Positions 1 through 46,080 of a DNA stretch of 46,080 nt are shown piece after piece. The notes beneath the pieces are model-generated. The model had not been told where the DNA came from. It made no database searches and saw only the letters and a list, made by a program, of their open reading frames with translations. Position numbers and translations under genes: made by a program. Origin of the DNA: an alpha proteobacterium SCGC AAA288-G21 (GTDB taxonomy: Bacteria; Pseudomonadota; Alphaproteobacteria; Pelagibacterales; Pelagibacteraceae); contig AZYC01000002.1 in NCBI GenBank assembly GCA_000513075.1, positions 1 to 46,080 of the forward strand. The letters run 5' to 3'. How positions within the stretch are numbered: the stretch's first letter is position 1; each line of letters starts with the position of its first letter.

Positions 1-46
1 CTAAAAAAATATTTATTAAAAATAAAATCAATACCCCAAAATTTTT
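1..46 (+). repeat. 46-bp perfect inverted repeat, copy A (ddl internal)
   Basis: ctaaaaaaatatttattaaaaataaaatcaataccccaaaattttt equals the reverse complement of 33004-33049; bounded on the left only by the window edge. Confidence 0.95.
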
Positions 47-617
47 CGTCTATAATTTTAATAACAGTTTAAATATTCACAGCTTGATAAAAAAATCAAA
101 AATTAATTTTCCCGTTATTATTAAACCAATTAACGAAGGTTCAAGCATAGGTGTTTATATTTGTACAAAAAAAAATCTAAACAAAAATTTAAAAAAGTTA
201 AGAAAATATAACAAAATATTAGTCGAAAAATGTATTCCTGGAAGAGAAATACAAGTGGCAGTTATGAATAACAAGCCTTTAGGTGCTATAGAGCTTAAAC
301 CTAAAAGAAAATTTTATGACTACCATGCTAAATATTCAAGTAAAGCAAAAACCAAACATATTATGCCGGCTCCTTTGGAATCAAAAAAATATAAAGAGGT
401 TTTAAGTATTGCCAGAAAAGTTCACCTTTTATTAGGATGTAAGGGAATCACTAGAAGTGATTTTAGATACCACAACAATAAATTCTTTCTACTGGAGATT
501 AATACACAACCAGGAATGACAAATCTTTCTTTAGTACCTGAAATAGCAGCATATAAGGGCATTAAATTTGAAAATTTGGTTGAATGGATGGTTAAAGATG
601 CTGATTACGCTAGGTAA
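1..617 (+). CDS. ddl: D-alanine--D-alanine ligase, C-terminal part (5' end missing at window edge)
   Basis: Frame 3 is open from base 3: KKIFIKNKINTPKFFVYNFNNSLNIHSLIKKSKINFPVIIKPINEGSSIGV...EINTQPGMTNLSLVPEIAAYKGI; ATP-grasp Ddl motifs; followed by ftsQ. Confidence 0.93.
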   Translation, partial: KKIFIKNKINTPKFFVYNFNNSLNIHSLIKKSKINFPVIIKPINEGSSIGVYICTKKNLNKNLKKLRKYNKILVEKCIPGREIQVAVMNNKPLGAIELKPKRKFYDYHAKYSSKAKTKHIMPAPLESKKYKEVLSIARKVHLLLGCKGITRSDFRYHNNKFFLLEINTQPGMTNLSLVPEIAAYKGIKFENLVEWMVKDADYAR

Positions 618-4396: not shown

Positions 4397-8146
<3,750 letters not shown>

Positions 8147-13605: not shown

Positions 13606-14022
13606 TTAATTTTTTGAAACGTAATCCAGAGCCTCATAATGGCCCTTTACCCAAGTTTCCAAAGTGCCATTTCCGTGCAAACATTCGCTATCACTACCAA
13701 AAAGGGACTTAACTTTATGCGAAGGTATGGTTACGTTTTCTAAGATATAAAAAACTGGCTCAATATCACTTTTAATTTCTGCAAGTAAATGTTTTCCTGA
13801 AATAATCTCATTTTTTTTTAAAGGATAATATTCATGAAAGCATTTACTTCTAAAAGGATTGTGTGCCGTAAGCACACTTAATTGAAGTGCTTTAGCCATA
13901 TCTTTTCTGGTCATACCTTTGCGTAGTTTTCCTTCCTCAAAAACAACCGTTGTAGGTGCTTTACAGTTACTGAGAAATAAAATTAATGAAATTAGAATAA
14001 TTGTATAAATCTTTTTGATCAT
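13606..14022 (-). CDS. Small putative lipoprotein of unknown function
   Basis: Signal peptide with lipobox LFLSNC; weak BamE/SmpA-like KGMTRKDMAKALQ segment. Confidence 0.6.
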   Translation of the reverse strand: MIKKIYTIILISLILFLSNCKAPTTVVFEEGKLRKGMTRKDMAKALQLSVLTAHNPFRSKCFHEYYPLKKNEIISGKHLLAEIKSDIEPVFYILENVTIPSHKVKSLFGSDSECLHGNGTLETWVKGHYEALDYVSKN

Positions 14023-14092
14023 AATAAATAGTATATATTATAAAATGATTCTTGGAAAAATGCATAAAAAAATGGAATATAATTATTGTTTT

Positions 14093-14776
14093 ATGAATAA
14101 ATTTCTAGGTGCACTATTTTCGGGTTTATTGTTTTGTGGCATCTCGGAAGCCGAGAGTTCCTTGCTAGAGTGTCAGGGTAGTAATTTTCCCACTTGGACA
14201 AATTGTTATGGCGAAGTAGGACCTCTCCCAATATCTGGTGACGTTTATACAGGAGAATGGAAAGTCGGCAAATATCACGGTCAAGGGACAATTGAATATT
14301 CAGATGGAACAAAATATGTAGGAAAATGGAAAAATGGTTTACCAAACGGAAAAGGAACCTTAACGGATTCTAGTGAAAATGAATATGTTGGAGGATTTAA
14401 AGATGGCAAGAGACAAGGTATAGGGACTCATACCTCCGCTAATGGAAGTAAATATTTCGGAGAATGGAAAGATGATAAATATCACGGACAAGGGACTAAT
14501 ATTTCCGTTGATGGAAAAAAATATGTTGGGAAGTGGGAAGACGGTTTGCCAAATGGAAAAGGAACCCTAACGGATTCTAGTGGAAATAAATACGTTGGAG
14601 GATTTAAAGAAGGCAAGAGACACGGACAGGGAACTTACACAATGTCAGATGGCTCAAATTACACCGGACAATGGGAAGGTAGCATACCAAATGGAGAAGG
14701 CGTTTATACATTTGCTGATGGAAAAATTGAAAAAGGTATTTGGAAAATGGGAGAATTAATTAAACGGAAAAAATAA
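14093..14776 (+). CDS. Secreted MORN-repeat protein 1 (ORF opens at 14015; signal peptide starts at 14093)
   Basis: Signal peptide MNKFLGALFSGLLFCGISEAES, then about 7 MORN units (YxGxWKxGxxxGxGT, 23 aa). Confidence 0.85.
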   Translation: MNKFLGALFSGLLFCGISEAESSLLECQGSNFPTWTNCYGEVGPLPISGDVYTGEWKVGKYHGQGTIEYSDGTKYVGKWKNGLPNGKGTLTDSSENEYVGGFKDGKRQGIGTHTSANGSKYFGEWKDDKYHGQGTNISVDGKKYVGKWEDGLPNGKGTLTDSSGNKYVGGFKEGKRHGQGTYTMSDGSNYTGQWEGSIPNGEGVYTFADGKIEKGIWKMGELIKRKK

Positions 14777-15664
14777 ATGAAAAACTTATCTTTTTATATA
14801 TTTTTGGTTTTATTTTTTTGTAACATAGGGTGGACAGAAACTTCATTGCCCGAATGTAAAGGAAGTAATTATGAAAAATGGACAAACTGCAAGGGTACTG
14901 AAACATGGGATAATGGAAGAGAATATGTTGGAGAATTTAAAGATGGCAAGAGAAACGGACAGGGGACTATAACTCATCCAGATGGATCAAAATATACTGG
15001 ACAATGGAAAGATGGTTTACCAAATGGAAAAGGAACTGAAACATGGGAAGACGGAACTAAATACGTTGGAGAATTTGAAAATGGTAAGAAAATCGGACAT
15101 GGACAAGGATCTCTCAGATATCCAAATGGAGCTAAATTTGTTGGACAATTTATAGATGGTTTTCCAACCGGAAAAGGAACCATGACATGGCTAGATGGAT
15201 CTAAACATGTTGGAGATTTTGAAGATGGCTCAGCTACTGGACAGGGAACTTTTATAACATCAGATGGAGCTAAATATGTTGGGCAATGGGAAAATGGTTT
15301 TCCAAATGGAAAAGGAATCGAAACATGGTCAGATGGAAGAAAATATGTTGGAAAATACAAAGACGGTTTATTTGATGGACAGGGAACTATGACATGGGCA
15401 GACGGAAAAAGATACGTCGGAGAATATAAAGCAGGCAAAAAAGAGGGACAAGGAACTTATACATATTCGGATGGATCTCAATACGTTGGAGAATATAAAG
15501 ATGATTCAGAAAATGGACAAGGAACTTATACATATCCTGGTGGAGAAAAATATGTTGGAGAATGGAAAGATGGACAATTCCATGGACAGGGAACCCTTAC
15601 ATATACTAATGGAACTGTTGAAAAAGGTTTTTGGAAAGATGGTAATATAGTTGAACCACAATAA
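14777..15664 (+). CDS. Secreted MORN-repeat protein 2
   Basis: Signal peptide, shared cap ETSLPECKGSNYEKWTNCKG, about 10 MORN units; starts immediately after the preceding TAA. Confidence 0.85.
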   Translation: MKNLSFYIFLVLFFCNIGWTETSLPECKGSNYEKWTNCKGTETWDNGREYVGEFKDGKRNGQGTITHPDGSKYTGQWKDGLPNGKGTETWEDGTKYVGEFENGKKIGHGQGSLRYPNGAKFVGQFIDGFPTGKGTMTWLDGSKHVGDFEDGSATGQGTFITSDGAKYVGQWENGFPNGKGIETWSDGRKYVGKYKDGLFDGQGTMTWADGKRYVGEYKAGKKEGQGTYTYSDGSQYVGEYKDDSENGQGTYTYPGGEKYVGEWKDGQFHGQGTLTYTNGTVEKGFWKDGNIVEPQ

Positions 15665-17309: not shown

Positions 17310-17625
17310 CAGCGTAAGTCTAATTTCTCTCTTCTGTGTGTCACCAGTGTGTCCGGAACTACTGATAGATTAAATTGTCTTTGACTTACTTAGCTACAAG
17401 AGACTTTACTAGGGGCGTTCTGTTGCCCGGTGCCCCAGACCGCGCTTTCTTAATATAAATTAAGCAGCGAGAGCAAATTTATCATTTGCAATTATAATTT
17501 AGCCCGTTACGGCGGAACAATACCGAACGAAAGAATAGCCTTTAGACACTCGTCGATCCTAGTTCACCCCCGCAAGTTGTAAATGGTGGAGGTGGTGGGT
17601 ACTGCCCCCACGTCCGCAATGTTTA
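17310..17625 (-). ncRNA. ssrA: tmRNA, circularly permuted two-piece alphaproteobacterial type (outer boundaries approximate)
   Basis: Minus strand: acceptor piece ...GGGGGCAGTACCCACCACCTCCACCA (encoded CCA at 17584-17586), loop, then 5' GGGGGTGAACTAGGATCGACG (from about 17571), tag ORF GCA AAT GAT AAA TTT GCT CTC GCT GCT TAA = ANDKFALAA* at 17460-17489, then a GGGGC/GCCCC stem. Confidence 0.9.
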
Positions 17626-17710
17626 TTACGAAATTCGTTTATCGTCATAGTTGGAAATCCAACACTATTAATATAAAACTTATATATTATAATTCAATAA
17701 TTTTTTAATC

Positions 17711-30978: not shown

Positions 30979-31494
30979 ATGGTTTTATTGAGAAAAAATT
31001 TTGTTAGTCGTTTCTTCAGTTTAATTCCACTTTTAATTCTATTTTTTTTAGCTTTTAGTGAAACGGATTTTAATTTTGAAAAGTTAAGTTTTTTATCCTT
31101 CAATCTAATATATATTGTTATATTTTATTGGGTTTTAAAAAAACCAGATATTTTAGGTTATGGATTTATTTTTTTAGCGGGAATCGTTAATGACGTAGTT
31201 ATTGGACTACCCATTGGAGTTAGTTCAATTACTTATTTAATTTTGGCAGGATTTGCAGCTTATGTAAGATATTTAACAGTACAGCCTTCTCTCATTTATG
31301 ATTGGATTATTTTTGTACCTTCAATTGCAGTTACAAATTCAGTCTATTTTTATATTCTAAGAATATTTTTTGATATTCAAATAAATTATATTACTTTAGC
31401 ATTAAACACTGGCATTACGATTCTTTTCTATCCTGTTATTGGAATTTTATTTAGTTTTTTAGCCAATATAATTATCAAGGAAAAAAATGTTTGA
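30979..31494 (+). CDS. mreD: Rod shape-determining protein MreD
   Basis: Small polytopic membrane protein between mreC and mrdA. Confidence 0.82.
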   Translation: MVLLRKNFVSRFFSLIPLLILFFLAFSETDFNFEKLSFLSFNLIYIVIFYWVLKKPDILGYGFIFLAGIVNDVVIGLPIGVSSITYLILAGFAAYVRYLTVQPSLIYDWIIFVPSIAVTNSVYFYILRIFFDIQINYITLALNTGITILFYPVIGILFSFLANIIIKEKNV

Positions 31495-33022
31495 TCGAGA
31501 TGCTTTTGGAGTCAATAAAAATAAATTAATTACAAGACGAATGTTTGTTTTGTCTGGTGCAAAAGTTATCGTTTTTACAGGTATTATTTTTCGATTATTT
31601 TCATTACAAATTTCTGAAAATAAAAAATATTCATCTTTATCTGAAAAAAATAGATTGAAGGCATGGAAACTGCCGCCAAAACGAGGAGTTTTTGAAGATT
31701 ATTTTGGAAATACAATAGCGGACAACTATCAAGTTTTTCAATTACATGTGGTGCCTGAAGAAGTGGAGGATTTTAATTATTTGATAGTCAGGCTAAAAAA
31801 TATAATCAAAATAGATAATAGAGAAATAAGGAGAATTTATAAGAAAAAGGAAAAACAATTACCTTGGCAAACATTAATTATTTCAGAAAACCTTTCTTGG
31901 GGGGAATTTTCTAAACTCAATCTTTTCTTACATGAACTATCAGGAGCAAAACCAGTATTTTCAGTTGCAAGAAAATATCCTCAAGCAGAAAATTTTTCTC
32001 ATGTTTTGGGATATGTTGCGGAAGCTAGCACACAAGATATTAACAATTATTCATTTATTAAAGAAAATTATATTCCCGGTCTTCGCGTTGGCAAGACCGG
32101 ATTAGAGAAAGCCTTAGAAAAAGAACTTATCGGCACTTCCGGCCTACAAAGCTACGAAGTTAATGCCCATGGAAAAAAAATTAAACAAATCAGTCGTGTC
32201 GAAGGAACTCAAGGCAAAAGCTTTAGAACTACCATTGATCAAGAAGTTCAAAAATATGCTCAGAAGTTATTGTTTGGAAAAAGCGGATCTATAAATGTAA
32301 TGGATATTTATACAGGAGATATAATTGCAATGGCATCCTCTCCAAGTTTTGATCCAAACCAATTTGTTCATGGAATAGATAGTAAAGAATGGAATAAAAT
32401 TAATAAAGACCCAATGAAACCCTTAATCAATAAATCGGTTTCTAGTTTATATTCTCCAGGCTCAACCCTGAAGCCTTTAGTTGCTCTGTCTGCACTAGAA
32501 AACCACGTGATAGTGCCTGGTTTTACTCATAAATGTGAAGGAGAAATGGAACTGTATGATCATAAATATCATTGCTGGAAGAAAAAAGGTCATGGTTACA
32601 TGAGTTTAAGGAATGCGATTAAACAATCTTGCGATATCTATTTTTATGAAGTGGCAAGAATATTAGGAGTGGACCGTTTATCGATTACCGCAAAAAAATA
32701 TGGACTTGGAGAAAAAGTATTGAGAGGTTATTTTCTAGAAGAAAAATCTGGAGTTATTCCATCTACAAAATGGAAACTTAAAAACATAGGCAGAGGATGG
32801 GTATTAGGTGAAACCTTACTTACGGGAATTGGGCAGGGTTATATTCAATGTACTCCATTAGAACTTTGTTTAATGGTTGCCCAGATGGCCAATGGAGGAT
32901 TTGAAATCCGACCCCGAATTATTGATGACGGTACTGTGGTTTATGAAGATATTAAATCATATATTGATAATCAATTGCAAAAATTTAAACTAGGATTAAA
33001 AGAAAAAATTTTGGGGTATTGA
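31487..33022 (+). CDS. mrdA: Penicillin-binding protein 2, C-terminally truncated at the inverted junction (native sequence to about 33003)
   Basis: LPPKRGVFEDYFGNTIADNYQVFQLHVVPE, SSLYSPGSTLKPL (SxxK), KQSCDIYFYE (SxD); no KTG box before the stop. Confidence 0.92.
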   Translation: MFDRDAFGVNKNKLITRRMFVLSGAKVIVFTGIIFRLFSLQISENKKYSSLSEKNRLKAWKLPPKRGVFEDYFGNTIADNYQVFQLHVVPEEVEDFNYLIVRLKNIIKIDNREIRRIYKKKEKQLPWQTLIISENLSWGEFSKLNLFLHELSGAKPVFSVARKYPQAENFSHVLGYVAEASTQDINNYSFIKENYIPGLRVGKTGLEKALEKELIGTSGLQSYEVNAHGKKIKQISRVEGTQGKSFRTTIDQEVQKYAQKLLFGKSGSINVMDIYTGDIIAMASSPSFDPNQFVHGIDSKEWNKINKDPMKPLINKSVSSLYSPGSTLKPLVALSALENHVIVPGFTHKCEGEMELYDHKYHCWKKKGHGYMSLRNAIKQSCDIYFYEVARILGVDRLSITAKKYGLGEKVLRGYFLEEKSGVIPSTKWKLKNIGRGWVLGETLLTGIGQGYIQCTPLELCLMVAQMANGGFEIRPRIIDDGTVVYEDIKSYIDNQLQKFKLGLKEKILGY

Positions 33023-33049
33023 TTTTATTTTTAATAAATATTTTTTTAG
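33004..33049 (-). repeat. 46-bp perfect inverted repeat, copy B (at the mrdA/ddl junction)
   Basis: Reverse complement identical to window bases 1-46; diverges at base 47 (C versus T). Confidence 0.95.
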
Positions 33050-33347
33050 AAACCTCTTTATCAATAGCAATACTTGAAGCAAGAACTCCTGAGTGAGTAT
33101 ATTTTATTTTTTCTGCATCTAAAATACTTTGAATATAGCCATCTTCACCGAAACGACCGTGCAAGGCATTAAATACAATTTTTGGTTTTATTTTTCTAAT
33201 TTCATTAATAAAATTTCCTTTTGGATCTAAGACTTTAACTTTATATTTCTTTTTTTTTAATGCCCTTACACATGCCCTTCCAGACAAAATACTAATTTCC
33301 TTTTCTTCAGAAATTCCTCCCATTAGAACTAGAATCGTTTTTTTCAT
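33004..33347 (-). CDS. ddl: D-alanine--D-alanine ligase, N-terminal part, truncated at the inverted junction (ORF reads to 32985)
   Basis: MKKTILVLMGGISEEKEISILSGRACVRALKKK...VFNALHGRFGEDGYIQSILDAEKIKYTHSGVLASSIAIDKEVSKKIFIKNKINTPKFF, then five non-homologous residues. Confidence 0.93.
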
Positions 33348-34264
33348 TTTTTTTTACCAATAATCTGTAATTCCAATTCAAGTTTTATTCCAGTGGTATT
33401 AAAAACCTTTTCTCTTACAAGACTAATCAAATTTTCCATATCATTTGAAGTTGCCGAACCCTGATTAACAAAAAAATTGCTATGTTTTTCAGAAATTGTG
33501 GCATCCCCAATTTTCATATTCTCACATTGCGCCTCTTTGATAAGTCCCCATGCCTTTTTTTGTGTCTGATTAGTTGGATTTTTAAAAGTACTTCCGCAAG
33601 TTTTAATTCCCGTTGGTTGTGATTTTTTTTTAATCGCTAAAAGTTTTTTCATTCTTTCTTTAATTTTTTTGCCATCTTGTTTTTTTCCCTTAAAAGTTCC
33701 GCTTAAAAAAATCAAATCATTAGATAAATCTGAACCTCGATAAAAAAAATTTATTTTTTCAGACTTAATCGTTCTCACAATCCCATTAAAGTCTACCGCC
33801 TGGATTGAAACTATACATTTTGAGATATCGTAGTCATAGCACCCTGAGTTCATTTTTATTGCACCACCAATAGAACCAGGAATACAAGAGAGAAATTCTA
33901 GTCCAGCAATAGAATTTTCTATTGCAAAATTTGATAACTGCTTATCCAACACAGCGGAACCTGAGATTACGGTATTATCACCAAGTTTAGACAAATGTGA
34001 GAAGTTTTTTCCAAGTTTAATAATAACGCCATCATATCCTCCATCTCTGATTAATGTGTTCGAACCAACTCCAAGAACTTTGATTGGCAAACTATTTGAA
34101 AAATTTTTTAAAAAAAAAATTAATTCTTGTAATGTATTTGGTTTAAAAAAAACTTTAGTTGGACCTCCTAGATTAAACCAATTTAATCGACTCATATCAT
34201 ATTCATAATAAATTTTTCCTGATAATTTTTTTGATAAATCTTGAACTAGTTTTGATATATTCAT
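33344..34264 (-). CDS. murB: UDP-N-acetylenolpyruvoylglucosamine reductase
   Basis: NWFNLGGPTKVFFKP, LGVGSNTLIRDGGYDGVIIKL, GCYDYDISKCI, CGSTFKNP. Confidence 0.96.
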   Translation of the reverse strand: MNISKLVQDLSKKLSGKIYYEYDMSRLNWFNLGGPTKVFFKPNTLQELIFFLKNFSNSLPIKVLGVGSNTLIRDGGYDGVIIKLGKNFSHLSKLGDNTVISGSAVLDKQLSNFAIENSIAGLEFLSCIPGSIGGAIKMNSGCYDYDISKCIVSIQAVDFNGIVRTIKSEKINFFYRGSDLSNDLIFLSGTFKGKKQDGKKIKERMKKLLAIKKKSQPTGIKTCGSTFKNPTNQTQKKAWGLIKEAQCENMKIGDATISEKHSNFFVNQGSATSNDMENLISLVREKVFNTTGIKLELELQIIGKKK

Positions 34265-35649
34265 AATTTTTTTGATATACTTTTAATCCATGAAGATATG
34301 CTCCCGGCACCCATGCATACTACTAACTCATTATCAAAAAGATTTTTTTTAAAATAATTTAATAAATCATTTTCTGATTTTAATATTGCCACTGTTACGT
34401 TAGATTTTTTTACAATTAATTTTCCAAATGAATGATAATCGAAATATTTATTAATTTTTTCACCGGCCGGATAAACGGGACATAGAACAACCTCGTCACA
34501 AAGCTTAAATGCCTTCGCAAATTCTTTTTTTAATAACCTGACTCGAGAGAATCTGTGGGGCTGAAAAACAGAAATTATTTTTCTAGAACGATGTACTGAC
34601 CTAATGCCGTCAAGTAAAGAGTGTATTTCGGTTGGATGATGGGCATAATCATCGTAAAAATCAATTTTTTTATAAGAAAATATTTTATTAAATCGACGTT
34701 GAACTCCTTCAAAATTTTTTAAAGCATTTTTGATTATATTTATTTTGATACCTAGACTTAATGCCACCGCAACTGCCGCTGTAGCATTTTTTATATTATG
34801 GTTCCCAAGCAAAGGTATTTGTAAATTTTTTAAATTTTTTTTAATTTTTCCAACTAAATTTAATTTTATATTAAAGCTTGAATTATTAATTTTTTTTCTA
34901 ACATTATTAATTTGAAAATTTGAATTTTTATCAAAGCCATAAGTTAAATAATTATTTATTTTTAAATTTTTAATTAATAATTTATTATTATAATCGTCTT
35001 TACAAATAATTGACTTTCCCAGGGAAGGTGTTTTTTCAACAAATAACTGAAAATATTTTTGTAAAACTGCTAATTTTTTATAAAAATCTAAGTGTTCCTT
35101 ATCAATATTTGTAACCACAGAATATGTTACGGGTATCTTTAAGAAACTACCATCTGACTCGTCTGATTCTACTACACACCAGTCACTTTTTCCCAGCTTC
35201 GCAGAATTTTTCAAAAAATTTATGATTCCACCATTAATTATTGTTGGATCCAATTTTGCTGCAAATAAAATGTTGGATATCAAAGAAGTAGTGGTCGTTT
35301 TTCCATGTGATCCTGAAATAACAATATTTTTTTTTAATGAAATAATGTTAGCAAGCATTTTACCACGTTTGTGAATAGGTATTTTTTTTTTTTTAGCTAA
35401 TAAGTATTCAACATTATTTTTTTTAATAGCAGAAGAAATAACAAGCATGGTAACCTTTTTTATATTTTTCTTTTTATGACCAATAAAAATCTTAATGCCA
35501 AATTTTCTTAACCGATCTATATTTTTGCTTTGACTTAAATCGCTACCCTGTACTATAAAGCCCATGTTATGCATTATTTGTGCTAATCCACTCATACCAA
35601 TTCCGCCAATACCAACAAAATGAATTACTTCATTGCTTGTTATTTTCAT
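34261..35649 (-). CDS. murC: UDP-N-acetylmuramate--L-alanine ligase
   Basis: VHFVGIGGIGMSGLAQIM, VISGSHGKTTTTSLIS, DDYAHHPTEI. Confidence 0.97.
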   Translation of the reverse strand: MKITSNEVIHFVGIGGIGMSGLAQIMHNMGFIVQGSDLSQSKNIDRLRKFGIKIFIGHKKKNIKKVTMLVISSAIKKNNVEYLLAKKKKIPIHKRGKMLANIISLKKNIVISGSHGKTTTTSLISNILFAAKLDPTIINGGIINFLKNSAKLGKSDWCVVESDESDGSFLKIPVTYSVVTNIDKEHLDFYKKLAVLQKYFQLFVEKTPSLGKSIICKDDYNNKLLIKNLKINNYLTYGFDKNSNFQINNVRKKINNSSFNIKLNLVGKIKKNLKNLQIPLLGNHNIKNATAAVAVALSLGIKINIIKNALKNFEGVQRRFNKIFSYKKIDFYDDYAHHPTEIHSLLDGIRSVHRSRKIISVFQPHRFSRVRLLKKEFAKAFKLCDEVVLCPVYPAGEKINKYFDYHSFGKLIVKKSNVTVAILKSENDLLNYFKKNLFDNELVVCMGAGSISSWIKSISKKL

Positions 35650-35651
35650 TT

Positions 35652-36728
35652 TCAGTAAATTAATTTTTCTATTTCTTTTTCTATTTTTAAAAGGGTATTT
35701 TTACTATCATTTTTAAACATATTTTCTCTTTTCAAGCTTACTTCAACATTATTATCTAAAATTCTGATCAGCATTTCTTTCAAACTATTGAAGGATAAAT
35801 TTTTTTGCTCTAATACCCAGCAACATCCCTTTTTTTCATAATAAATTGCATTTTGATATTGATGATTATCTTTGGCAAATGGATAAGGAATAGCAACAAA
35901 TGGTACTCCTAAAAATTCAAGTTCTCCGATAGTTGATGATCCACATCTTGATATCGCAAGGTCGGCTTTTGATATTAATTCAACAATGTTTTCGTGAAAG
36001 CTAAAAATATAATTTTCAATATTATTTTTATTATAATAATTTTGAATTTCATTTACTTGGTTAGGTAAGGATTGTTGAATGACGTTTATTTTGTAACTTT
36101 TATTTATGTCTAAAATAACCTGCGGTATTACTTTACCAAAAATTTCAGCGCCTTGGCTTCCACCCAAAATCAAAATGGTTTTTTTTGAATTTAAATTATT
36201 TTTTTCCGATAATTCATATTTTATAATTTCTTCTCTAAGAATATTTCCAACCTCAACACATTTGATTAAATGCTTATTGGGAAGATTGAGAATACTGTTC
36301 GAATTTATAAAAAGCTTACTACAAAAACGCACAAAATATTTATTTACTCTACCCAAAACAAGATTAGGTTCGTACAATAAAATTTTAATATTAAGTAATT
36401 TTGCAGCCAAACAGATGGGAAGGGAAACATATCCCCCAAGACCAAATACAAAATATGGTTTTTCTTTCCTCAAAAGCAAAAAAGAATTGAATAAAGCTAG
36501 AATTAGCTTTAAATAAAAAAATATTTTGTTTACAAATCTTATTCGAGTTGGAAAACCAACATCGAATATTTTATGTAAAGAAAAATTTTTTTTTACATAT
36601 TTTGCACCTCTTTTATCGGTAACGAATATTGTTTCATATTCTTTTTTTTTAAGAAAATTAATTAAACTAATAGAGGGAAAAACATGACCTCCCGTACCTC
36701 CGCTACAAAAAAGAATTTTTTTTTTCAT
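35652..36728 (-). CDS. murG: UDP-N-acetylglucosamine--N-acetylmuramyl transferase
   Basis: CSGGTGGHVFPSISL, GSQGAEIFGKVIP, ISRCGSSTIGELEFLGVPFVAIPYPFAKDNHQYQNA. Confidence 0.96.
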   Translation of the reverse strand: MKKKILFCSGGTGGHVFPSISLINFLKKKEYETIFVTDKRGAKYVKKNFSLHKIFDVGFPTRIRFVNKIFFYLKLILALFNSFLLLRKEKPYFVFGLGGYVSLPICLAAKLLNIKILLYEPNLVLGRVNKYFVRFCSKLFINSNSILNLPNKHLIKCVEVGNILREEIIKYELSEKNNLNSKKTILILGGSQGAEIFGKVIPQVILDINKSYKINVIQQSLPNQVNEIQNYYNKNNIENYIFSFHENIVELISKADLAISRCGSSTIGELEFLGVPFVAIPYPFAKDNHQYQNAIYYEKKGCCWVLEQKNLSFNSLKEMLIRILDNNVEVSLKRENMFKNDSKNTLLKIEKEIEKLIY

Positions 36729-37867
36729 AAACTATCTTGGTTTAATGGAATTTTTTTTGTCAAATTTAATATTAAACCAGCTATTATTGCGTTTCCTACA
36801 ATTGATGAGCCTCCATAACTTAAAAACGGAAGGGTTATCCCTGTTGTTGGTAAAAGTCTTATATTTACTCCAATATGAATGAAAGTTTGAATTAACAATA
36901 ATGAAATTAAACCAACCAGTACGAGTTTAGTATATTCATCCTTTTCATCTAATAATTTATGTAACACCTTGTAAGAAAAAAATAAGAAAATTATTAGTAG
37001 CAGCAAAAGTAATATACCTCCAAATTCTTCTGCGATTATGGCAAACATATAATCGGTATGAGCTTCTGGCACTCTATCTTTTAATACTCCTTCACCTAAA
37101 CCTCTGCCCGTAAAACCACCGCTCTTTATCGCCTCTAGTGCTTTCTCTGATTGATAGTTTTCTCCTTTTGTTGGATCAATAAATGATTTTAGTCTAAATA
37201 AGATATATCCAAATTTATTCGGAAAAAAAAATAGAATCAAAACAAAAATTAAAACACAGAATAAAAAAAATATACCCAAAATTATGAAATTTATTCCTGA
37301 TGAAAAAAGCATAATTAACCAAGACGAAAATAGTAGAACAGATTGGCCTAAATCTGGTTGAATAATTAAAAGAAGCAAAATAAATGATAATAAAACTAAT
37401 GTATAAAAATATTTTTTATATAAATTATGAATTACTTGTGAAGAGATAATTTGTGCTAATATAAGAATAAAAAAGGGTTTTAATATTTCAATCGGTTGAA
37501 ATCTAGGTAGAAGAGGTATGTCCAACCATCTTTTTGCACCCTTAACTTCAATTCCAATAAGGGGAACTAAAAATAATAATAAGAGAGATATTAAAAAAAA
37601 ATATGGCAGATATGCTTTGATTATTTCTCTTTTTTGAAGAGAAACAAAAAAGATAATTATTAGTGCAATAACAACAAATATAAAATGCTTTAAAAAGAAA
37701 AAATAAGCTTCCTTATTTAATTTTTCACCAATAACAGATGATGTAGAAGAAAATGAAAAAAATAAACCTAAGAAAAAAAGTAGCAAGATTAGCGATAATA
37801 TTGTCTTGTCTATATTTCTCCACCAGCTTGCTAGTAAACTTCTATTTTCTCTACTAAAATCAAACAT
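36725..37867 (-). CDS. ftsW: Lipid II polymerase FtsW (SEDS family)
   Basis: Polytopic; GGFTGRGLGEGVLKDRVPEAHTDYMFAIIAEEFG, LPFLSYGGSSI. Confidence 0.95.
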   Translation of the reverse strand: MFDFSRENRSLLASWWRNIDKTILSLILLLFFLGLFFSFSSTSSVIGEKLNKEAYFFFLKHFIFVVIALIIIFFVSLQKREIIKAYLPYFFLISLLLLFLVPLIGIEVKGAKRWLDIPLLPRFQPIEILKPFFILILAQIISSQVIHNLYKKYFYTLVLLSFILLLLIIQPDLGQSVLLFSSWLIMLFSSGINFIILGIFFLFCVLIFVLILFFFPNKFGYILFRLKSFIDPTKGENYQSEKALEAIKSGGFTGRGLGEGVLKDRVPEAHTDYMFAIIAEEFGGILLLLLLIIFLFFSYKVLHKLLDEKDEYTKLVLVGLISLLLIQTFIHIGVNIRLLPTTGITLPFLSYGGSSIVGNAIIAGLILNLTKKIPLNQDSL

Positions 37868-37870
37868 ATA

Positions 37871-39208
37871 TTAATAAATACTTGATCTTGCCCTATAAAC
37901 AAGTTCCTTAAATTTTTTTCCTCTGTCTTCAAAATTTGTAAATTGATCAAAGGATGCGGCCGCAGGACTAAATAAAATTGTATATTTATTTTTTGTTAAA
38001 CTATTTGAGTTTTTTATTTGCTTCAAGTCCTTGATAACTTTTAAAAATGCATTCTTTAAATTATTTACCACAACTAAATTTACTTTTTTTCTTAATTGTT
38101 TTCTAAAGAAAATCGTACTTTTTCCAATGATATAAGCTTTGATAATATTTTTTTTAAGTTTATTTAGAAAAAATTTATCACCTTTTTTAGGAAGTCCTCC
38201 AACAATCCAAAAAATATTTTGATAGCTTTTCAATGATTGTGAAGATGATTCAAAATTGGTTGCTTTTGAATCATTTATGCAAATTATTTCGTCGTTTAAT
38301 AATAATCTTTCTTGTCTATGTGGCAATCCTTTAAATTTGTTTAAGACTTGCAATACAAGATTTAATCTTATTCTATAATTGCTTGCTATTTTAAGTACAA
38401 AAGAAATATTTTCCAAATTGTTTTGTGATAACAAATATTTATTTTTAATTTTTTTAAAAATTTTTTTTACCTTATATTTATCAACTTTATGCAACTTGGA
38501 AAAAAATTGTTTTTTCTTATAATTGTCTATAATTTTTTTCGTAAATTTATTGTTTAAATTTAGATACGAATGATCTTTGGATGATTGGAATTTTAAAATT
38601 TTTATCTTTGCATTAATATAGTTTGTCATAGTCTTGTGTCTTTCCATATGGTCAGGTGAAATATTAAGTATTGCAGCATGATTAGATTTAAAATGCTGTG
38701 TATATTCAAGTTGATAAGATGAAACTTCGACAATAATAACTGCTTTTTTATTTAACTTTTTAAGAGATAATATTGGCTCACCTATGTTCCCTACAAGATG
38801 AGTTTTGTGACCGGCTTTTTTAAAAACTGCCTCTAGTAGCTTACAAGTTGTTGATTTACCATTCGTACCAGTAACCGAGATAATTTGGCTATCTTTGTTG
38901 AAATTATAAAATATATCTAAATCCGTAATTATTTTAGCTCTATTTTTTGCTAAAAAATTTTTTAGATAGCAATGTCTAATATTTATACCAGGACTGACTA
39001 CAATAAAGTCAATAAAATCATTTGTTAATTTTTTTTTGAAATTTAGTAAATATTTTTTTTTTATACTTTTTCGAACAAAAGAATTATCATCCCAACAATA
39101 AATTTCTGATTTAATTTTTTTTAAGAATTTTAGTGTAGCTAATCCACTTTTTGCAAATCCATAAATAAGAATTTTTTTTTTTGCAAATTTTGAACTTAAA
39201 TTTCGCAT
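37871..39208 (-). CDS. murD: UDP-N-acetylmuramoylalanine--D-glutamate ligase (ORF opens at 39265; likely start 39208)
   Basis: ILIYGFAKSGLATLKFL, VTGTNGKSTTCKLLEAVF, SPGI, ILNISPDHMERH. Confidence 0.94.
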   Translation of the reverse strand: MRNLSSKFAKKKILIYGFAKSGLATLKFLKKIKSEIYCWDDNSFVRKSIKKKYLLNFKKKLTNDFIDFIVVSPGINIRHCYLKNFLAKNRAKIITDLDIFYNFNKDSQIISVTGTNGKSTTCKLLEAVFKKAGHKTHLVGNIGEPILSLKKLNKKAVIIVEVSSYQLEYTQHFKSNHAAILNISPDHMERHKTMTNYINAKIKILKFQSSKDHSYLNLNNKFTKKIIDNYKKKQFFSKLHKVDKYKVKKIFKKIKNKYLLSQNNLENISFVLKIASNYRIRLNLVLQVLNKFKGLPHRQERLLLNDEIICINDSKATNFESSSQSLKSYQNIFWIVGGLPKKGDKFFLNKLKKNIIKAYIIGKSTIFFRKQLRKKVNLVVVNNLKNAFLKVIKDLKQIKNSNSLTKNKYTILFSPAAASFDQFTNFEDRGKKFKELVYRARSSIY

Positions 39209-40293
39209 TATCTCAATTTTAGAGTCGCTAATCCAATTAAAGCTAAAATTATCGAGATAATCCAAAACCTAATTACAACTGTTGATTCTGCCCAACCTTT
39301 TTTCTCAAAATGGTGGTGCAGGGGTGCCATTTGAAAAATTCTTCTTCCAGTTAATTTAAAGGAAACTACCTGAATAATTACAGAGACTGTTTCTAATACG
39401 AACAAACCACCAATGATTGCCAGCACAATTTCATGTTTTGAAACAATACTTATGGCTCCTAACGATCCCCCAAGTGATAATGATCCAGTGTCTCCCATGA
39501 AAATTTTCGCGGGAGGTGCATTGTACCACAAAAATCCAAGACAAGCGCCGCATATAGCACCGCAGAATATTGAAACTTCACCAAGTTCTTCAATATGCGG
39601 TATTTGAAGATAATTTGAGAAAACTGTATTTCCTGCAACATAACAAATAAAAGCAAAAGAAGCTGCCACCATTATCACAGGTACAGTTGCTAAACCATCT
39701 AACCCATCTGTTAAGTTGACAGCATTTGATGATGCAATAATTATAAATATGTAAAACGGAATAAAAAATATTCCCATATTAAAAATTAAATTTTTAAAAA
39801 ATGGAAAATATAAATTTTTCAAGTGTAAATGGTCACCAAGTTTATGCAAAAAAAGTACGGCAATAAAAGCTAATAATATTTGGGCAACAAGCTTCAGTTT
39901 TGGAGAAAGGCCAGATGAATTATGATTTTTTATTTTTAAGAAATCATCGATTGCTCCTAAAATTCCAAAACTACTAGCTACAAATATTAAAAACCAAATA
40001 TAAATATTGGATAAATCTGCCCAAAGTAAAGTGCTTAGTAACATTCCTATTAAGATCACCACTCCTCCCATTGTTGGAGTTCCAACTTTTTTAAATATGT
40101 GATCAATCGGGCCATCATCTCTAATAGGTTCCGTAATATTTTTTTGTGAAAAATATTTTATAAATGGACCTCCAATAAGAAATACAATAATCAAAGACGA
40201 TATTAATGATAATCCAGTCCTAAATGTTAAATATCTAAATACATTTAAAAAAGAAAATTCGTCTATAAAAGATGTTAATAAACTATAAAGCAT
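39208..40293 (-). CDS. mraY: Phospho-N-acetylmuramoyl-pentapeptide-transferase
   Basis: GTPTMGGVVILIGM, AVNLTDGLDGLATVP, FMGDTGSLSLGG, MAPLHHHFEKKGWAE. Confidence 0.98.
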   Translation of the reverse strand: MLYSLLTSFIDEFSFLNVFRYLTFRTGLSLISSLIIVFLIGGPFIKYFSQKNITEPIRDDGPIDHIFKKVGTPTMGGVVILIGMLLSTLLWADLSNIYIWFLIFVASSFGILGAIDDFLKIKNHNSSGLSPKLKLVAQILLAFIAVLFLHKLGDHLHLKNLYFPFFKNLIFNMGIFFIPFYIFIIIASSNAVNLTDGLDGLATVPVIMVAASFAFICYVAGNTVFSNYLQIPHIEELGEVSIFCGAICGACLGFLWYNAPPAKIFMGDTGSLSLGGSLGAISIVSKHEIVLAIIGGLFVLETVSVIIQVVSFKLTGRRIFQMAPLHHHFEKKGWAESTVVIRFWIISIILALIGLATLKLR

Positions 40294-43127
40294 TAATTAA
40301 TTTTTCCTTTTTTTAATTTTTTGCATAAATTATTCAAACCAGTTAAATTTGAACCTTTTATCATTACATAATCATTATCATTTATATAATTCCTAATTAA
40401 ACTACCAATATCATTTAATGAATTTAATATTTTTCCTTTTTTGTTTTTTCTCACAAATTTGTAGGTCTCCAATATAGATTTGCCAATCACAAAAACTTTA
40501 CCAATGTCACTATTATTAATATATTTTGCTAAATTTCTGTGAAAAAACTTAGCTTTTTTTCCCAATTCCAACATATCTCCCAATACAAGAATTTTTTGAG
40601 TCTTTTTTTTATTGATATTATTAAAATGATTTATAGCCAGTCTCATTGAATGTGGATTAGCATTATAGCTTTCGTCAAGTAAATAAAATTTTTTCTTAAA
40701 TATTTTAATTTTATTCATATCTCCTCGTCCTTCTGGTATTTTAAAATTTAAAAAAATATTTTTCTTATCTGATATATCCAAATCCAAAACAAATATAATT
40801 AGGCATGTTGAAAGAACATTTTGAATGTAAGCACTATTATTATAGTTAATGTTAAATAAATAAACTTTATTATTATATGAAATGGAAGCTTGATAAATAT
40901 TATTATTTTTTTTTACATTTTTTAAATATAGATCTGCATTTTTATTCAAACCAAATGATTTTACCTGAATGTTTTTTTGGCTAGCTTTCTGCGTTATATA
41001 ATTAAAAAATTTATCATCTCTATTTAAGATTAAAGTTCCTTGTGCAATTAAATTATTAATAATTTCGGACTTTGCTCTTGCAATTTCTTTTGTACTTTTA
41101 AAATTTTTTAAATGTGCTGAAGAAATATTTGTTATAACTGCTATATCTGGTTTTAATATATTGGAAAGTGAGTTTATTTCACCTTTTTTATCCATGCCTA
41201 ATTCAAATACACCAAAAGCATCCTTTTCTTGCAGATTGGATAAGCTCAAGGGTACTCCATATTGATTATTGAACGACGACTTTGATGAGGAAGTTTTATC
41301 AAAATTTTTTAAAACAAAACTTGTCATATCTTTTAGTGTTGTCTTTCCAGAACTCCCTGTAATCCCAATGATTTTTGCTTTGGTACGATGTCTAATTACT
41401 TTTGCAAGATTATTTAGTGCATTTAAAGTATCTGGAACTCGAATTAATTTTTTTAAATTAACCCCTCTTATTAATCTGCTCACAACGGCTTTTTTTGCTC
41501 CTCTTGCGAAGGCTTCTTTAACAAATTTATGTCCATCCTTTCTTTTTCCTTTAATCGCAAAAAATAAAGATTTGGAAGTAATTTGTTTTGAATTTATGGA
41601 AACATTTTTAAAATTAAAACGATTATAATTTGAAAACACTTCAGATGTGATGCTTGGGTGCCAAAAATAATTGATAGTTTGTTTTTTGTTGTTTATGAAA
41701 AATTTTTTTATTTCATTTTCGTCAGAAAAATGAATTTTTTTTGAACCAAAATCTTGATATTGTTCATGACCTTTGCCTGCTATAAGTAATATTTCATTAT
41801 AGCCAAGTTCTTTAATGGCCAGCTGAATGGCAAGCTTCCTATTTTTCATTTCCACAAAGTCTGTTTTAATTCCTTTTTTGATTGATTGTCTTATACTTTT
41901 TGGATTTTCAAATCTTGGATTGTCATCTGTTAAATAAATTTTTTTGCAATACTTGCTTGCTATATGGCCCATAATGGATCTTTTGCCTTTGTCACGATCT
42001 CCTCCACATCCAAAAACAATCAAAATATTTTTTTTAAATTGAAACTTTAAATTTTTTAAAACTCTTTCTAGAGCATCTGGAGTATGTGCAAAATCAACAA
42101 ATATTTTCGAATTATTTTTTAATTTTTTTACACATTCCAATCTTCCTTTTGCTGATTTAACATATTTTGTTTTATTTAAAGATTTTTTAATACTAAGGCC
42201 GCATTTTTCTGCTAAAAGAATAGCAAAAAGCAAATTTTTTATTTGATATTGTCCAAATAGGGAAGTTTTTAATTGATACATTTTTTTTTTATATAAAAAT
42301 TCTATTTCCTGTAAATGGTTCTTATGTTTTTGACTTAGTATTTTTAAGTTTCCACAATCATAACCAACTGAATTAATATTAATGTTTTTTATTTTACATA
42401 TTTTTTTTAATTTTTTAAAAAAGCTGTTAGTTTCATCTGTAATACAGAATGTTTTTTTGTTTAATAAATTTTTAAATAAATAAAGTTTTGAATTTAAATA
42501 GCAATTCATATTTCTATGGTAATCCATATGATCTCTGCTTAAATTTGTAAATGCAGCTGCTTTGAAATTAATATGATCCAATCTTTTTTGATCAAGGCCA
42601 TGGCTTGATGCCTCTAATATTACGGTATTGATTTTTTTTTTTTTAAATTCAGAAAGACTTTTATGTAACAATAATGGGTCTGGAGATGTAAGACTGGTTG
42701 TTTTTTTAAATAAATTTGACTTTATGCCTAAAGTACCTACAGAAGCAGCACGTATTTTATTTAATTTAAATAATTGAAAAAAAAAATCAGCGACTGAAGT
42801 TTTTCCATTAGTTCCAGTTACAGCAACAATATGAGAAGGTTTTTCTTTATAAAAATTTGAACAAGCTTCGGATAAACTCTTTCTTACATCGCACACCCTT
42901 AACAGTGGAATTTTGAAACTTTTAAATTTGATTTTTGAATCAACAACAATTGCAGATACCTTTTTCAAGATTGCTTTTTGAATAAATTTTGTTCCAGCTA
43001 TTTTGTTTCCTTTAATTGCAAAAAAAATGTCACTTTTTTTTGCTTTTCTGCTATCAAAACAAATACCTTTTACATAAATTTTTCGATATTTTTTGCCTAC
43101 AGTTTTAAGTAGCTCGGGTAAGTACAT
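40293..43127 (-). CDS. MurE-MurF fusion (mDAP ligase + D-Ala-D-Ala-adding ligase), 944 aa
   Basis: N-half: VAVTGTNGKTSVADFFFQL, DDNPRFENP (mDAP-type DNPR); C-half: VSINSKQITSKSLFFAIKGKRKDGHKFV, GITGSSGKTTLKDM, LDESYNANPHSMRLAI; one uninterrupted frame. Confidence 0.94.
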   Translation of the reverse strand: MYLPELLKTVGKKYRKIYVKGICFDSRKAKKSDIFFAIKGNKIAGTKFIQKAILKKVSAIVVDSKIKFKSFKIPLLRVCDVRKSLSEACSNFYKEKPSHIVAVTGTNGKTSVADFFFQLFKLNKIRAASVGTLGIKSNLFKKTTSLTSPDPLLLHKSLSEFKKKKINTVILEASSHGLDQKRLDHINFKAAAFTNLSRDHMDYHRNMNCYLNSKLYLFKNLLNKKTFCITDETNSFFKKLKKICKIKNININSVGYDCGNLKILSQKHKNHLQEIEFLYKKKMYQLKTSLFGQYQIKNLLFAILLAEKCGLSIKKSLNKTKYVKSAKGRLECVKKLKNNSKIFVDFAHTPDALERVLKNLKFQFKKNILIVFGCGGDRDKGKRSIMGHIASKYCKKIYLTDDNPRFENPKSIRQSIKKGIKTDFVEMKNRKLAIQLAIKELGYNEILLIAGKGHEQYQDFGSKKIHFSDENEIKKFFINNKKQTINYFWHPSITSEVFSNYNRFNFKNVSINSKQITSKSLFFAIKGKRKDGHKFVKEAFARGAKKAVVSRLIRGVNLKKLIRVPDTLNALNNLAKVIRHRTKAKIIGITGSSGKTTLKDMTSFVLKNFDKTSSSKSSFNNQYGVPLSLSNLQEKDAFGVFELGMDKKGEINSLSNILKPDIAVITNISSAHLKNFKSTKEIARAKSEIINNLIAQGTLILNRDDKFFNYITQKASQKNIQVKSFGLNKNADLYLKNVKKNNNIYQASISYNNKVYLFNINYNNSAYIQNVLSTCLIIFVLDLDISDKKNIFLNFKIPEGRGDMNKIKIFKKKFYLLDESYNANPHSMRLAINHFNNINKKKTQKILVLGDMLELGKKAKFFHRNLAKYINNSDIGKVFVIGKSILETYKFVRKNKKGKILNSLNDIGSLIRNYINDNDYVMIKGSNLTGLNNLCKKLKKGKIN

Positions 43128-44873
43128 TTAAAATTTATTGGAAGCTTGTAAATTATTTGTGGCTAAAATTGGACCTATTTTTTCAATAATATTACCTGCA
43201 ACAACAACCGTATTCCATCCAGCAGTATTGCGTGTTTCTCCAGTAAGCTTGTATCCACTAGAAAATTCATAAACAAAGCCTGGGGCAGATTTTGGTTCAT
43301 CCAACATCACAAGTAATAAATATTTAGGTTTGTTGATTGGAAACAAGGATACAAAAGTATTTATTTTTTTTTCTTTACTATAAGTTCCATTAATTACTTT
43401 ACGAGCTGTTCCGGTTTTACCTCCTACCTCATATCCTTCTTTGTCTGCAAATGATGCCGTTCCTTTTTTGTTTAAAACTACTTTTCTCAACATTGAGTTA
43501 ATTACGTTGCTCGTTTTTAATGATATAATCTGCTTTTTAACTTGTGGTGTAATATTTTTATTTAATAAAATAGTTGGATGAATCTCGTATCCACCATTAC
43601 CAATGATTGCATAAGCTTTTGCAAGTTGCAAAAGTGTGGTGGTTATTCCGTGTCCGAATGATGCAGTTTCAAGTGTACATTTTTCCCATTTAAATGGAAG
43701 AGGTGTTCCCACTTCCTCCAACTCAAAATTAATTTTTTCAAAAAGCTCTAAAGAATTTAATAATTTTCTATAGTTTTTAACACCAACTTTTTTAGCTATT
43801 CGGATTGCCCCAATATTAGATGATCTAACTAATATTTCTTCCGCTGTTAAGTTTTTTGGTAATTTGTCGTGTTCTGAGATTGGCATTCCACCACAAATTA
43901 TTTTATTTTTTAAATCTTTAAATACTGTATTTGCCTTTATTGACCCAAATTCTATACCTGCTGTTAATGTAAATGTTTTAAAAACTGAACCTAACTCATA
44001 AACTCCTTTTGTGATCTTATTCAAATAAATCGGGTCCTCTATATTCATTCTCTTATTTAAGTCAAAATCAGGAAGTGAGATTAAAGATAAAATTTCGCCA
44101 CTATCAATTTCCATAAGTAATGCGGCACTACCTAACGTTTGAAATATATTATTTCCAGATATTAATTCTTCTCTAATGATATATTGTAAGTTAGCATCTA
44201 ATGATAAAATTAGTGGATTATTAGACTCTGTTAATTTTTCATTAAATGATTTTTCTAATCCCGATATACCCAAATTATCATCGTCTATTTGTCCTAGAAC
44301 ATGACTGAAAAGAGATTCATGAGGATATACTCTGAATTGTTTTTCATTTATATCAATGGACTGATCACCTAAAAGCCATAGTTTTCTCCATTCTGATTCA
44401 TTTAATCTTTTTTTTATATAAAAGTATTTTCCTAGTTCTATTTTTTTTTTTATTCTATCCATATTCATGTTTGGAAAAATCAATCTTAAATTGATTAATA
44501 GTTTACCCTCATCTGTAACGAACCGAGGTTTAATTGCTGCTGAATACAATTTTACATTTCTTGCAAGTAGATTACTATTTCTATCGAGAATATCTTGTCT
44601 TCTTAAAAAAACTGAAGGCAGGGATTTATTTGTAAAATAGTTTTCTTTCTTAATTGATGCCAAATAAATAATTTTAGACCCAAATATAAAAGCAACAACT
44701 AAAAAAATAAAAAAAATAAAAGATACTCTATTCAAAGACAATTTAACTCCGGAGAATTTTGATTGATCTTTATATTCATATTTTGGAGTTTCATAATCTT
44801 CAAAGTAAAAGCCTTTATTCCTCCAAGAGGTATGACTAACTGGTTTATTAATTTTTCCTTTTTTGTTGTACAT
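43128..44873 (-). CDS. ftsI: Peptidoglycan D,D-transpeptidase FtsI (PBP3)
   Basis: GSVFKTFTL (SxxK), RSSNIGAI (SxN), EVGGKTGTARKV (KTG). Confidence 0.95.
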   Translation of the reverse strand: MYNKKGKINKPVSHTSWRNKGFYFEDYETPKYEYKDQSKFSGVKLSLNRVSFIFFIFLVVAFIFGSKIIYLASIKKENYFTNKSLPSVFLRRQDILDRNSNLLARNVKLYSAAIKPRFVTDEGKLLINLRLIFPNMNMDRIKKKIELGKYFYIKKRLNESEWRKLWLLGDQSIDINEKQFRVYPHESLFSHVLGQIDDDNLGISGLEKSFNEKLTESNNPLILSLDANLQYIIREELISGNNIFQTLGSAALLMEIDSGEILSLISLPDFDLNKRMNIEDPIYLNKITKGVYELGSVFKTFTLTAGIEFGSIKANTVFKDLKNKIICGGMPISEHDKLPKNLTAEEILVRSSNIGAIRIAKKVGVKNYRKLLNSLELFEKINFELEEVGTPLPFKWEKCTLETASFGHGITTTLLQLAKAYAIIGNGGYEIHPTILLNKNITPQVKKQIISLKTSNVINSMLRKVVLNKKGTASFADKEGYEVGGKTGTARKVINGTYSKEKKINTFVSLFPINKPKYLLLVMLDEPKSAPGFVYEFSSGYKLTGETRNTAGWNTVVVAGNIIEKIGPILATNNLQASNKF

Positions 44874-44879
44874 GAAAAA

Positions 44880-45542
44880 TTATTTAACTGGTATAGCCGG
44901 AATACCAAAAAATGATTTTATAATTTGTAGTCCCGCCCAATTATGAACTTTTTTTGAAACAGATATTTTTTTTGATCCTTGTAATTGTCTGTTATCAATC
45001 TCTTTTGTAACATTTAATGTCTTATTAATCGATTCCTCTGTACTTAATTGACTGACAGTATTGTTATTTTTTAATTTTTTCAAAATTGCTAAATATTTAA
45101 TAGTTTCTTCTCCTGTGAAAGCGTCTTCTGTAATTTGTGTCTCAATATTTTTTGTAGCAAGTAATTGTCTATTATCAATCTCTTTTGTAACATTTGATTT
45201 CTTGTTAACCGATTTCTCTGTGCTTAATTGAGTAAAAGCATTGTCATTTTTTAATTTTTTTAAAATAGCTAAATCTTTTTTTGGTTTAACTGATTTTTTT
45301 ATTTGAGATTCTTTGTAATATGAAAAATTTTCATCAAGAAAATTTTTTGCCAAAAGAGAAATACGTTTGGGTGTCGTTAAATATTCAAAATCCAAGCTTA
45401 CTTCATTTAAGTTAAAATTTAAACTATTAATTTCATTATCTAAGTAAAGTAATTCTTTTTCTAATAATCTTGTTTTGTTTTTCACCAAAGACGTAAAAAT
45501 TAATCCTGATATTAGAGTTATTAATATTAAAATGTTTCTCAT
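44880..45542 (-). CDS. ftsL: FtsL-like protein with an internal repeat
   Basis: N-terminal TM + coiled coil (LLEKELLYLDNEINSLNFNLNEVSLDFEYLTTPKRISLLAKNFL) between rsmH and ftsI; duplicated LAILKKLKN..KEIDNRQL segment. Confidence 0.75.
   Translation of the reverse strand: MRNILILITLISGLIFTSLVKNKTRLLEKELLYLDNEINSLNFNLNEVSLDFEYLTTPKRISLLAKNFLDENFSYYKESQIKKSVKPKKDLAILKKLKNDNAFTQLSTEKSVNKKSNVTKEIDNRQLLATKNIETQITEDAFTGEETIKYLAILKKLKNNNTVSQLSTEESINKTLNVTKEIDNRQLQGSKKISVSKKVHNWAGLQIIKSFFGIPAIPVK
44981..45094 (-). repeat. ftsL internal repeat, unit 1
   Basis: gtaattgtctgttatcaatctcttttgtaacattt...ttttttaattttttcaaaattgctaaat; about 114 bp, offset 180 bp from unit 2. Confidence 0.85.
45161..45274 (-). 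repeat. ftsL internal repeat, unit 2
   Basis: gtaattgtctattatcaatctcttttgtaacattt...ttttttaatttttttaaaatagctaaat. Confidence 0.85.
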
Positions 45543-46080
45543 AAATGCGAACCCATTCCTTCTATCTCTAGATAGTTTTTAAATTTTTCTGTTAATTTAT
45601 TAGGAAACAAATACTTCTTATTATTTCTTATACCATAACGTAGTTTTGCAGATCTTGATGGATGATTTATTAAAATTTCATTTTTGGAAGGATTTATTGA
45701 TTTTCTTATTGGGCAATCAAAGAGTCTTATATCTTCTTTATCTAACTTTGGAAAATATCTTGAAGGATTTTTGCTTTTTTCAGAATAAGTTCTAAAAAAA
45801 TATTTTACTATTTTATCTTCTAATGAATGAAAACTTACTACAATTAATATGGCTCCTGGATTTAATAATTTAGTTGCCTCTATAAGTCCTTTGATTAATT
45901 CACTCACTTCATTATTTACAAAAATTCTTAAAGCCTGAAGTGATTTAGTAGCTACATTTTTTTTAGCAAAATTATTATTTTTTTTAACTTTTTTTACGAT
46001 TCCCACAAAATCATCTGTACTAAATATTTTATTATTTTTTCTTAACCTTGCTAATTGAAATGCTATTTTTTTGTGATCCT
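45539..46080 (-). CDS. rsmH: 16S rRNA (cytosine1402-N4)-methyltransferase, C-terminal part (5' end beyond window)
   Basis: LQALRIFVNNEVSEL, GAILIVVSFHSLEDKIVKYFFR, RSAKLRYGIR; frame open to the window edge (HKKIAFQLARLRKNNKIFSTDDFVGIV). Confidence 0.95.
   Translation of the reverse strand, partial: DHKKIAFQLARLRKNNKIFSTDDFVGIVKKVKKNNNFAKKNVATKSLQALRIFVNNEVSELIKGLIEATKLLNPGAILIVVSFHSLEDKIVKYFFRTYSEKSKNPSRYFPKLDKEDIRLFDCPIRKSINPSKNEILINHPSRSAKLRYGIRNNKKYLFPNKLTEKFKNYLEIEGMGSHL

Follow-up and report, generated by a model that had tools for sequence, protein, structure and literature searches.

An inverted ddl–mrdA junction in a Pelagibacterales contig, almost certainly a chimera of in-vitro genome amplification

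Genes at the junction and the inverted repeat

The DNA stretch analyzed here (the window; 46,080 nt) is the entire contig C2 of the Pelagibacterales genome G000, which has 909,786 bases in 139 contigs and is 66.46% complete. At position 33004, a truncated mrdA on the plus strand and a truncated ddl on the minus strand are joined tail to tail. The N-terminal part of mrdA (PBP2), cut by the join, occupies 31487–33003; its ORF (31487–33022, plus strand) ends with ...LGLKEKILGY and has no KTG box, as described in the first-pass annotation, and covers positions 1–466 of the 593 in profile TIGR03423 (pbp2_mrdA). The N-terminal part of ddl (D-alanine--D-alanine ligase) lies at 33004–33347 on the minus strand, within an ORF (32985–33347) ending with ...NTPKFFLLILV*. 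The C-terminal part is found at the other end of the block, in an open-ended ORF on the plus strand (3–617) beginning with KKIFIKNKINTPKFF. These two ORFs agree with the earlier statement that Ddl is split, with the N-part on the minus strand and the C-part on the plus strand from base 1. Next to the N-terminal part of ddl is a murB-murC-murG-ftsW-murD-mraY-murEF-ftsI-ftsL-like-rsmH block (33347–46078, minus strand), the orientation of which is wrong relative to 1–33003.

Inverted-repeat search showed that the ddl segment at the contig start (1–46, plus strand, coding for KKIFIKNKINTPKFF) is an exact inverted copy of 33004–33049 (minus strand), with 46 nt being 100% complementary. Among 10 first-order Markov sequences matched to the window in composition (29.5% GC), exact inverted repeats reached a maximum length of 16–18 nt, and in the window minus its first 46 bases the maximum was 18 nt; the identical segment claimed previously is therefore real and far beyond chance. 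Since the left limit of the repeat is the contig start, 46 bp is the length of a leftover overlap and not that of a biological repeat.

Native continuations of ddl and mrdA

Joining the two parts of ddl across the 46 bp gave one ORF of 304 aa, which passes profiles NF002378 and TIGR01205 and can be aligned without gaps over the full length to the Ddl of three congeners (93.8, 89.5, and 87.8% identity). The continuous Ddl predicted from the sequence alone was thus obtained; the N-terminal part (33347–33004, minus strand) natively continues into 3–617. Searching the genome with profile PF07478 (Dala_Dala_lig_C) revealed a single strong match, within the C-terminal part of ddl (C2:90–593), and two weak PF07478/ATP-grasp matches, on C20 and C10, in open frames of far greater length. 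No second Ddl was detected by this search in the assembly (66% complete).

When the junction region was used as the query against the genome, a match other than the window itself was found on contig C30, with 6401–6432 (minus strand) identical to window 32977–33008 (plus strand). This 32-bp stretch at the C30 end is a trace of native mrdA continuity: starting with it, the reverse complement of C30 continues mrdA with YAGKTGTSQ, followed by a rodA-type gene. The mrdA C-terminus with its KTG box and rodA, recommended as search targets by the first-pass annotation, are thus both located on C30. The PF00905 transpeptidase domain is divided accordingly, with profile positions 1–188 at C2:32285–32929 and 206–299 at C30:5985–6299. 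The sole other PF00905 match in the genome is ftsI, and no second PBP2 was detected with this profile in the assembly (66% complete). Joining mrdA to C30 gave a PBP2 of 666 aa, sharing 84.2, 79.9, and 71.1% identity over the full length with those of three congeners. Matches of the junction region to C18 (86%) and C19 (76%) were dismissed as low-complexity similarity of short A/T-rich stretches.

Gene order in relatives

With window genes as queries, murC-murB-ddl-ftsQ-ftsA-lpxC-bamD-ligA was found as a single run in genomes G001, G003, G014, and G006, the canonical order holding as far as their stretches extend, and G002 showed the canonical order from rsmH through an intact ddl. In G007, a genome in one contig, the run extends from murC through ddl, ligA, mazG, and thyX to mrp-hflK-hflC-degP-miaA and goes on with ilvB-ilvH-ilvC-leuA-mreB-mreC-mreD-mrdA and then a rodA-type gene, all colinear. 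In G003 and G004, mrdA is directly followed by its own C-terminal part and a rodA-type gene. Hence, murB-ddl-ftsQ and mreD-mrdA-rodA are intact and in canonical order in the closest relatives and in the one-contig family member. The murB-ddl and mreB-mrdA genes, facing each other in the window, are on one strand and in one block in these relatives. The comparison with close relatives, which had been advised, therefore showed colinearity with ddl and mrdA intact, and agrees with the order rsmH-...-murB-ddl-ftsQ-ftsA expected after joining.

The window junction was absent from the four other genomes of the genus searched (G001, G002, G003, and G004). In G001, G002, and G003, the two halves of the junction matched separate places on native ddl or mrdA, and in G004 there was a short mrdA match only.

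Anatomy of the breakpoint

At the breakpoint, native mrdA on C30 reads GAAAAAAAAGTC, the window GAAAAAATTTTGGGG, and the reverse strand of native ddl CGAAAAATTTTGGGG. The longer readings are ...GGATTAAAAGAAAAAAAAGTC for mrdA on C30, ...GGATTAAAAGAAAAAATTTTGGGG for the window, and ...GACGAAAAATTTTGGGG for ddl, the last being the reverse complement of window 36–50. Since identity to mrdA extends to 33008 and identity to ddl begins at 33004, the microhomology at the breakpoint is AAAAA (33004–33008), common to mrdA and the ddl reverse strand. Homopolymer A is common in a genome of 29.5% GC.

Both native arrangements have left traces in the assembly: the contig starts with 46 bp of native ddl, and C30 ends with 32 bp of native mrdA. 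These are what remains of the two native connections; the join did not arise through this homology. The reciprocal junction, between the C-terminal parts of ddl and mrdA, was not found in the assembly; the C30 end leads to native mrdA and base 1 to native ddl. The junction spans 33.0 kb, compared with 1.3–25 kb for other junctions in G000, and its leftover overlaps are 46 and 32 bp versus the usual 95 bp of this assembly.

Inverted contig ends across the assembly

Contig ends reappearing inverted inside their own contig were found in 14 of the 33 ends examined in G000, distributed over 12 contigs. The ends examined were the starts of C1–C18 and C20–C22 and the ends of C1–C12, the larger contigs being sampled by their first 10–20 kb and last 10 kb. 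Since these stretches cover about half of the assembly, 14 is a lower bound for chimeric ends. The inverted self-overlaps were 93 bp at the start of C1, 46 bp at the start of C2, 38 bp at the end of C5, 103 bp at the end of C8, 227 bp at the end of C9, and 997 bp at the start of C15; exactly 95 bp was seen eight times, at both ends of C4 and C10 and at the starts of C7, C11, C14, and C17. Thus, the lengths range from 38 to 997 bp, with spans of 1.3–33 kb. The end of C3 and the start of C18 also have 95 bp in common, in direct orientation, indicating that 95 bp is the overlap left by the assembler.

Alternative joins at these ends restore ProB at C1 and GreA at the C4 end, as tested with profiles, and give longer ORFs also at the C4 start, C8 end, C10 end, and C11. 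We take the products of the latter to be an MsbA-type ABC transporter, NuoF, UvrB, and a family-2 glycosyltransferase, respectively. At the C10 start, the contig body itself is the native side (PgsA, profile-tested), and longer body ORFs suggest the same for the C5 end (MnmA-like) and the C14 start (ABC-permease-like). ORF continuity at the self-overlaps of C9, C15, and C17 points to neither side as native. A mixture of native and non-native contig bodies is what is expected from an arbitrary choice of paths through chimeric edges.

Other repeats were also noted in this assembly. A 220-bp exact repeat, inverted and internal to both contigs, is present in C18 (8447–8666 of the C18 stretch read) and C6 (36209–36428), and short repeats of 28–34 bp link C3, C6, and C16. 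Positions 22501–25000 of C11 are exactly 2,500 bases of N, probably a masked stretch, and were left out of the tally.

Similar structures in sister genomes

Contig C4 of G002, which belongs to the same genus, runs natively from rsmH through the intact ddl to degP and then breaks inside degP. Beyond the break (about 43,064–43,083) is an inverted rodA-mrdA-mreDCB-leuA-ilv-miaA segment, with degP again at the contig end, and the last 95 bp recur inverted (42980–43074/54566–54660). As in the window, a contig end is found inverted inside its own contig, an essential gene is split, and the native join restores it. The two cases differ in the genes broken (ddl and mrdA are intact in G002), in the overlap, which is 95 bp in G002, and in the span (about 11.5 kb).

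Exact inverted repeats of at least 30 bp were found neither in the stretches of the one-contig family genomes nor in the loci of the named relatives, except CACKOH010000015.1 from the single amplified genome AG-457-B14. One 6,454-bp sequence stands at either end of this 24,880-bp contig, inverted at one end relative to the other, and mrdA is present twice. It is probably a palindromic contig resulting from the same kind of amplification artefact.

Origin of the junction

The join at 33004 is, with near certainty, an inverted chimera generated in vitro by multiple displacement amplification (MDA) and taken into the contig by the assembler. The material amplified was most likely a single cell of the SAR11 clade (Pelagibacterales), in which ddl and mrdA were unbroken; the breaks were made by whole-genome amplification. 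The first-pass annotation had preferred a chimeric or misassembled contig, such as an MDA inversion chimera, and this reading is upheld by five independent lines: the missing pieces on C30, the restored proteins, the intact genes in relatives, the 14 of 33 contig ends, and the G002 case. G000 itself appears to be a single amplified genome, judging from its congeners and its own artefact profile. The nearest named relative, the congener Pelagibacteraceae bacterium AG-464-P07, is named in the AG- plate style used for single amplified genomes; in the project of PMC6122165, to which this plate presumably belongs, such genomes underwent MDA or WGA-X amplification and SPAdes assembly in single-cell mode. 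For G000, phi29 MDA with random primers is the presumed method, with chimeric reads expected among the data.

Among 475 MDA chimeras sequenced from one E. coli cell, 406 (85%) were inverted; 69 of these 406 spanned more than 10 kb, the typical inversion being below 10 kb (Lasken and Stockwell 2007, PMC1855051). Most chimeras were joined at complementarity of 2–21 nt, a range into which AAAAA falls, and microhomology was present in only 34.8% of the inverted chimeras beyond 10 kb (PMC1855051). In a larger survey, the overlaps were mostly 5–8 nt, with a peak at 6 nt (PMC4595205). The window resembles these phi29 products (PMC1855051, PMC4595205) in that segments of the same genome are inverted and joined at a short microhomology, here 5 nt, and G000 resembles published cases in that native forms are found alongside chimeric ones in the data and many chimeras occur per genome. 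Unlike the published chimeras, which are individual reads, that of the window is seen as an assembled contig, and with 33 kb it belongs to the less frequent group of more than 10 kb. Apart from this long span and the leftover overlaps, unusually short at 46 and 32 bp instead of 95 bp, nothing about the junction is untypical.

A displaced 3′ end, extended along the murB-ddl side as far as about 33004, would have re-annealed through AAAAA to an mrdA strand located some 33 kb from it on the chromosome, from where synthesis would have continued in reverse orientation. The assembly graph would have contained the native edges (ddl-N/ddl-C and mrdA-N/mrdA-C-rodA) together with a chimeric edge (ddl-N/inverted mrdA-N). 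In following the chimeric edge, the assembler would have cut the native ones, so that short native overlaps remained, 46 bp long where the contig starts and 32 bp long where C30 ends. The gene order on the real chromosome is rsmH...murB-ddl-ftsQ-ftsA-lpxC...mreB-mreC-mreD-mrdA-rodA, that is, window 46080–33004 (reverse strand), window 47–33003, and C30 reversed.

Two other explanations were considered. Pure assembler error, by which unrelated graph nodes were joined via a common 46-bp k-mer overlap without any chimeric molecule, would fit the way in which de Bruijn assemblers leave branch points with shared ends, of which those of 95 bp are common in G000. However, the 46-bp overlap connects ddl-N to ddl-C and is thus a native edge, the fused ddl-N/mrdA edge has 5 nt in common, which is below any usual k, and the typical overlap of the assembly is 95 bp and not 46 bp. 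The earlier suggestion that the 46 bp represents the k-mer overlap or graph edge behind the join was therefore not sustained. Since 5 nt is too little for any usual k, the join requires that a chimeric molecule, or reads derived from it, existed, and assembler error by itself is very improbable.

A real chromosomal inversion of the ca. 33-kb ddl-mrdA block is less probable still. Staggered breaks, possibly duplicating 46 bp within ddl and 32 bp within mrdA, would likewise yield inverted copies at the breakpoints, and both breakpoints fall within one contiguous block in relatives. Such an inversion, in a genome retaining mreBCD, rodA, and all of the mur pathway, would break the sole ddl and mrdA copies of the assembly, in line with the earlier remark that two normally essential genes would be disrupted. 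Moreover, the reciprocal ddl-C/mrdA-C junction was not seen, C30 end and base 1 running natively; the junction occurs in none of the four congeners searched; and thirteen other contig ends carry the same signature, which as a set of real inversions is not credible. This second reading of the first-pass annotation retains hardly any probability. It is just as implausible that a cell or subpopulation bore a ddl/mrdA-disrupting inversion with a damaged cell wall and that the remnants at the contig ends are breakpoint duplications.

Implications for synteny and other features of the window

The join at 33004, being an MDA chimera in our preferred reading, is a matter of data quality and no real biological feature. 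Synteny on either side of 33,004 is sound; synteny across it is not to be used, and the caution expressed previously in this respect was justified. With at least 14 inverted self-overlaps in G000, neither the order of genes nor gene fusions or "truncated essential genes" can be relied on close to such points, in this assembly or in its sister assemblies. A simple test, whether a contig end recurs inverted inside its own contig, could flag chimeras without reads.

Several other features were observed in the window. In the block next to ddl, one ORF of 944 aa (40293–43127, minus strand) is an apparent MurE-MurF fusion; MurE and MurF follow the same order in G002, where the frame appears to shift near residue 224. 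The gene in the ftsL position contains two 134-nt copies, 84% identical and spaced by 180 bp (44965–45278, minus strand), through which its 220-aa protein is internally repeated. Two neighbouring MORN-type repeat genes (14015–15664, plus strand) have 10 listed 86-nt copies, mostly in a 69-bp register, and this gene pair is also side by side in G001. A permuted two-piece tmRNA of the alphaproteobacterial type, which is ordinary for Alphaproteobacteria, is located between an MFS gene and thyX (17408–17701, minus strand; RF01849, 239 bits), with the tag ANDKFALAA predicted by ARAGORN.
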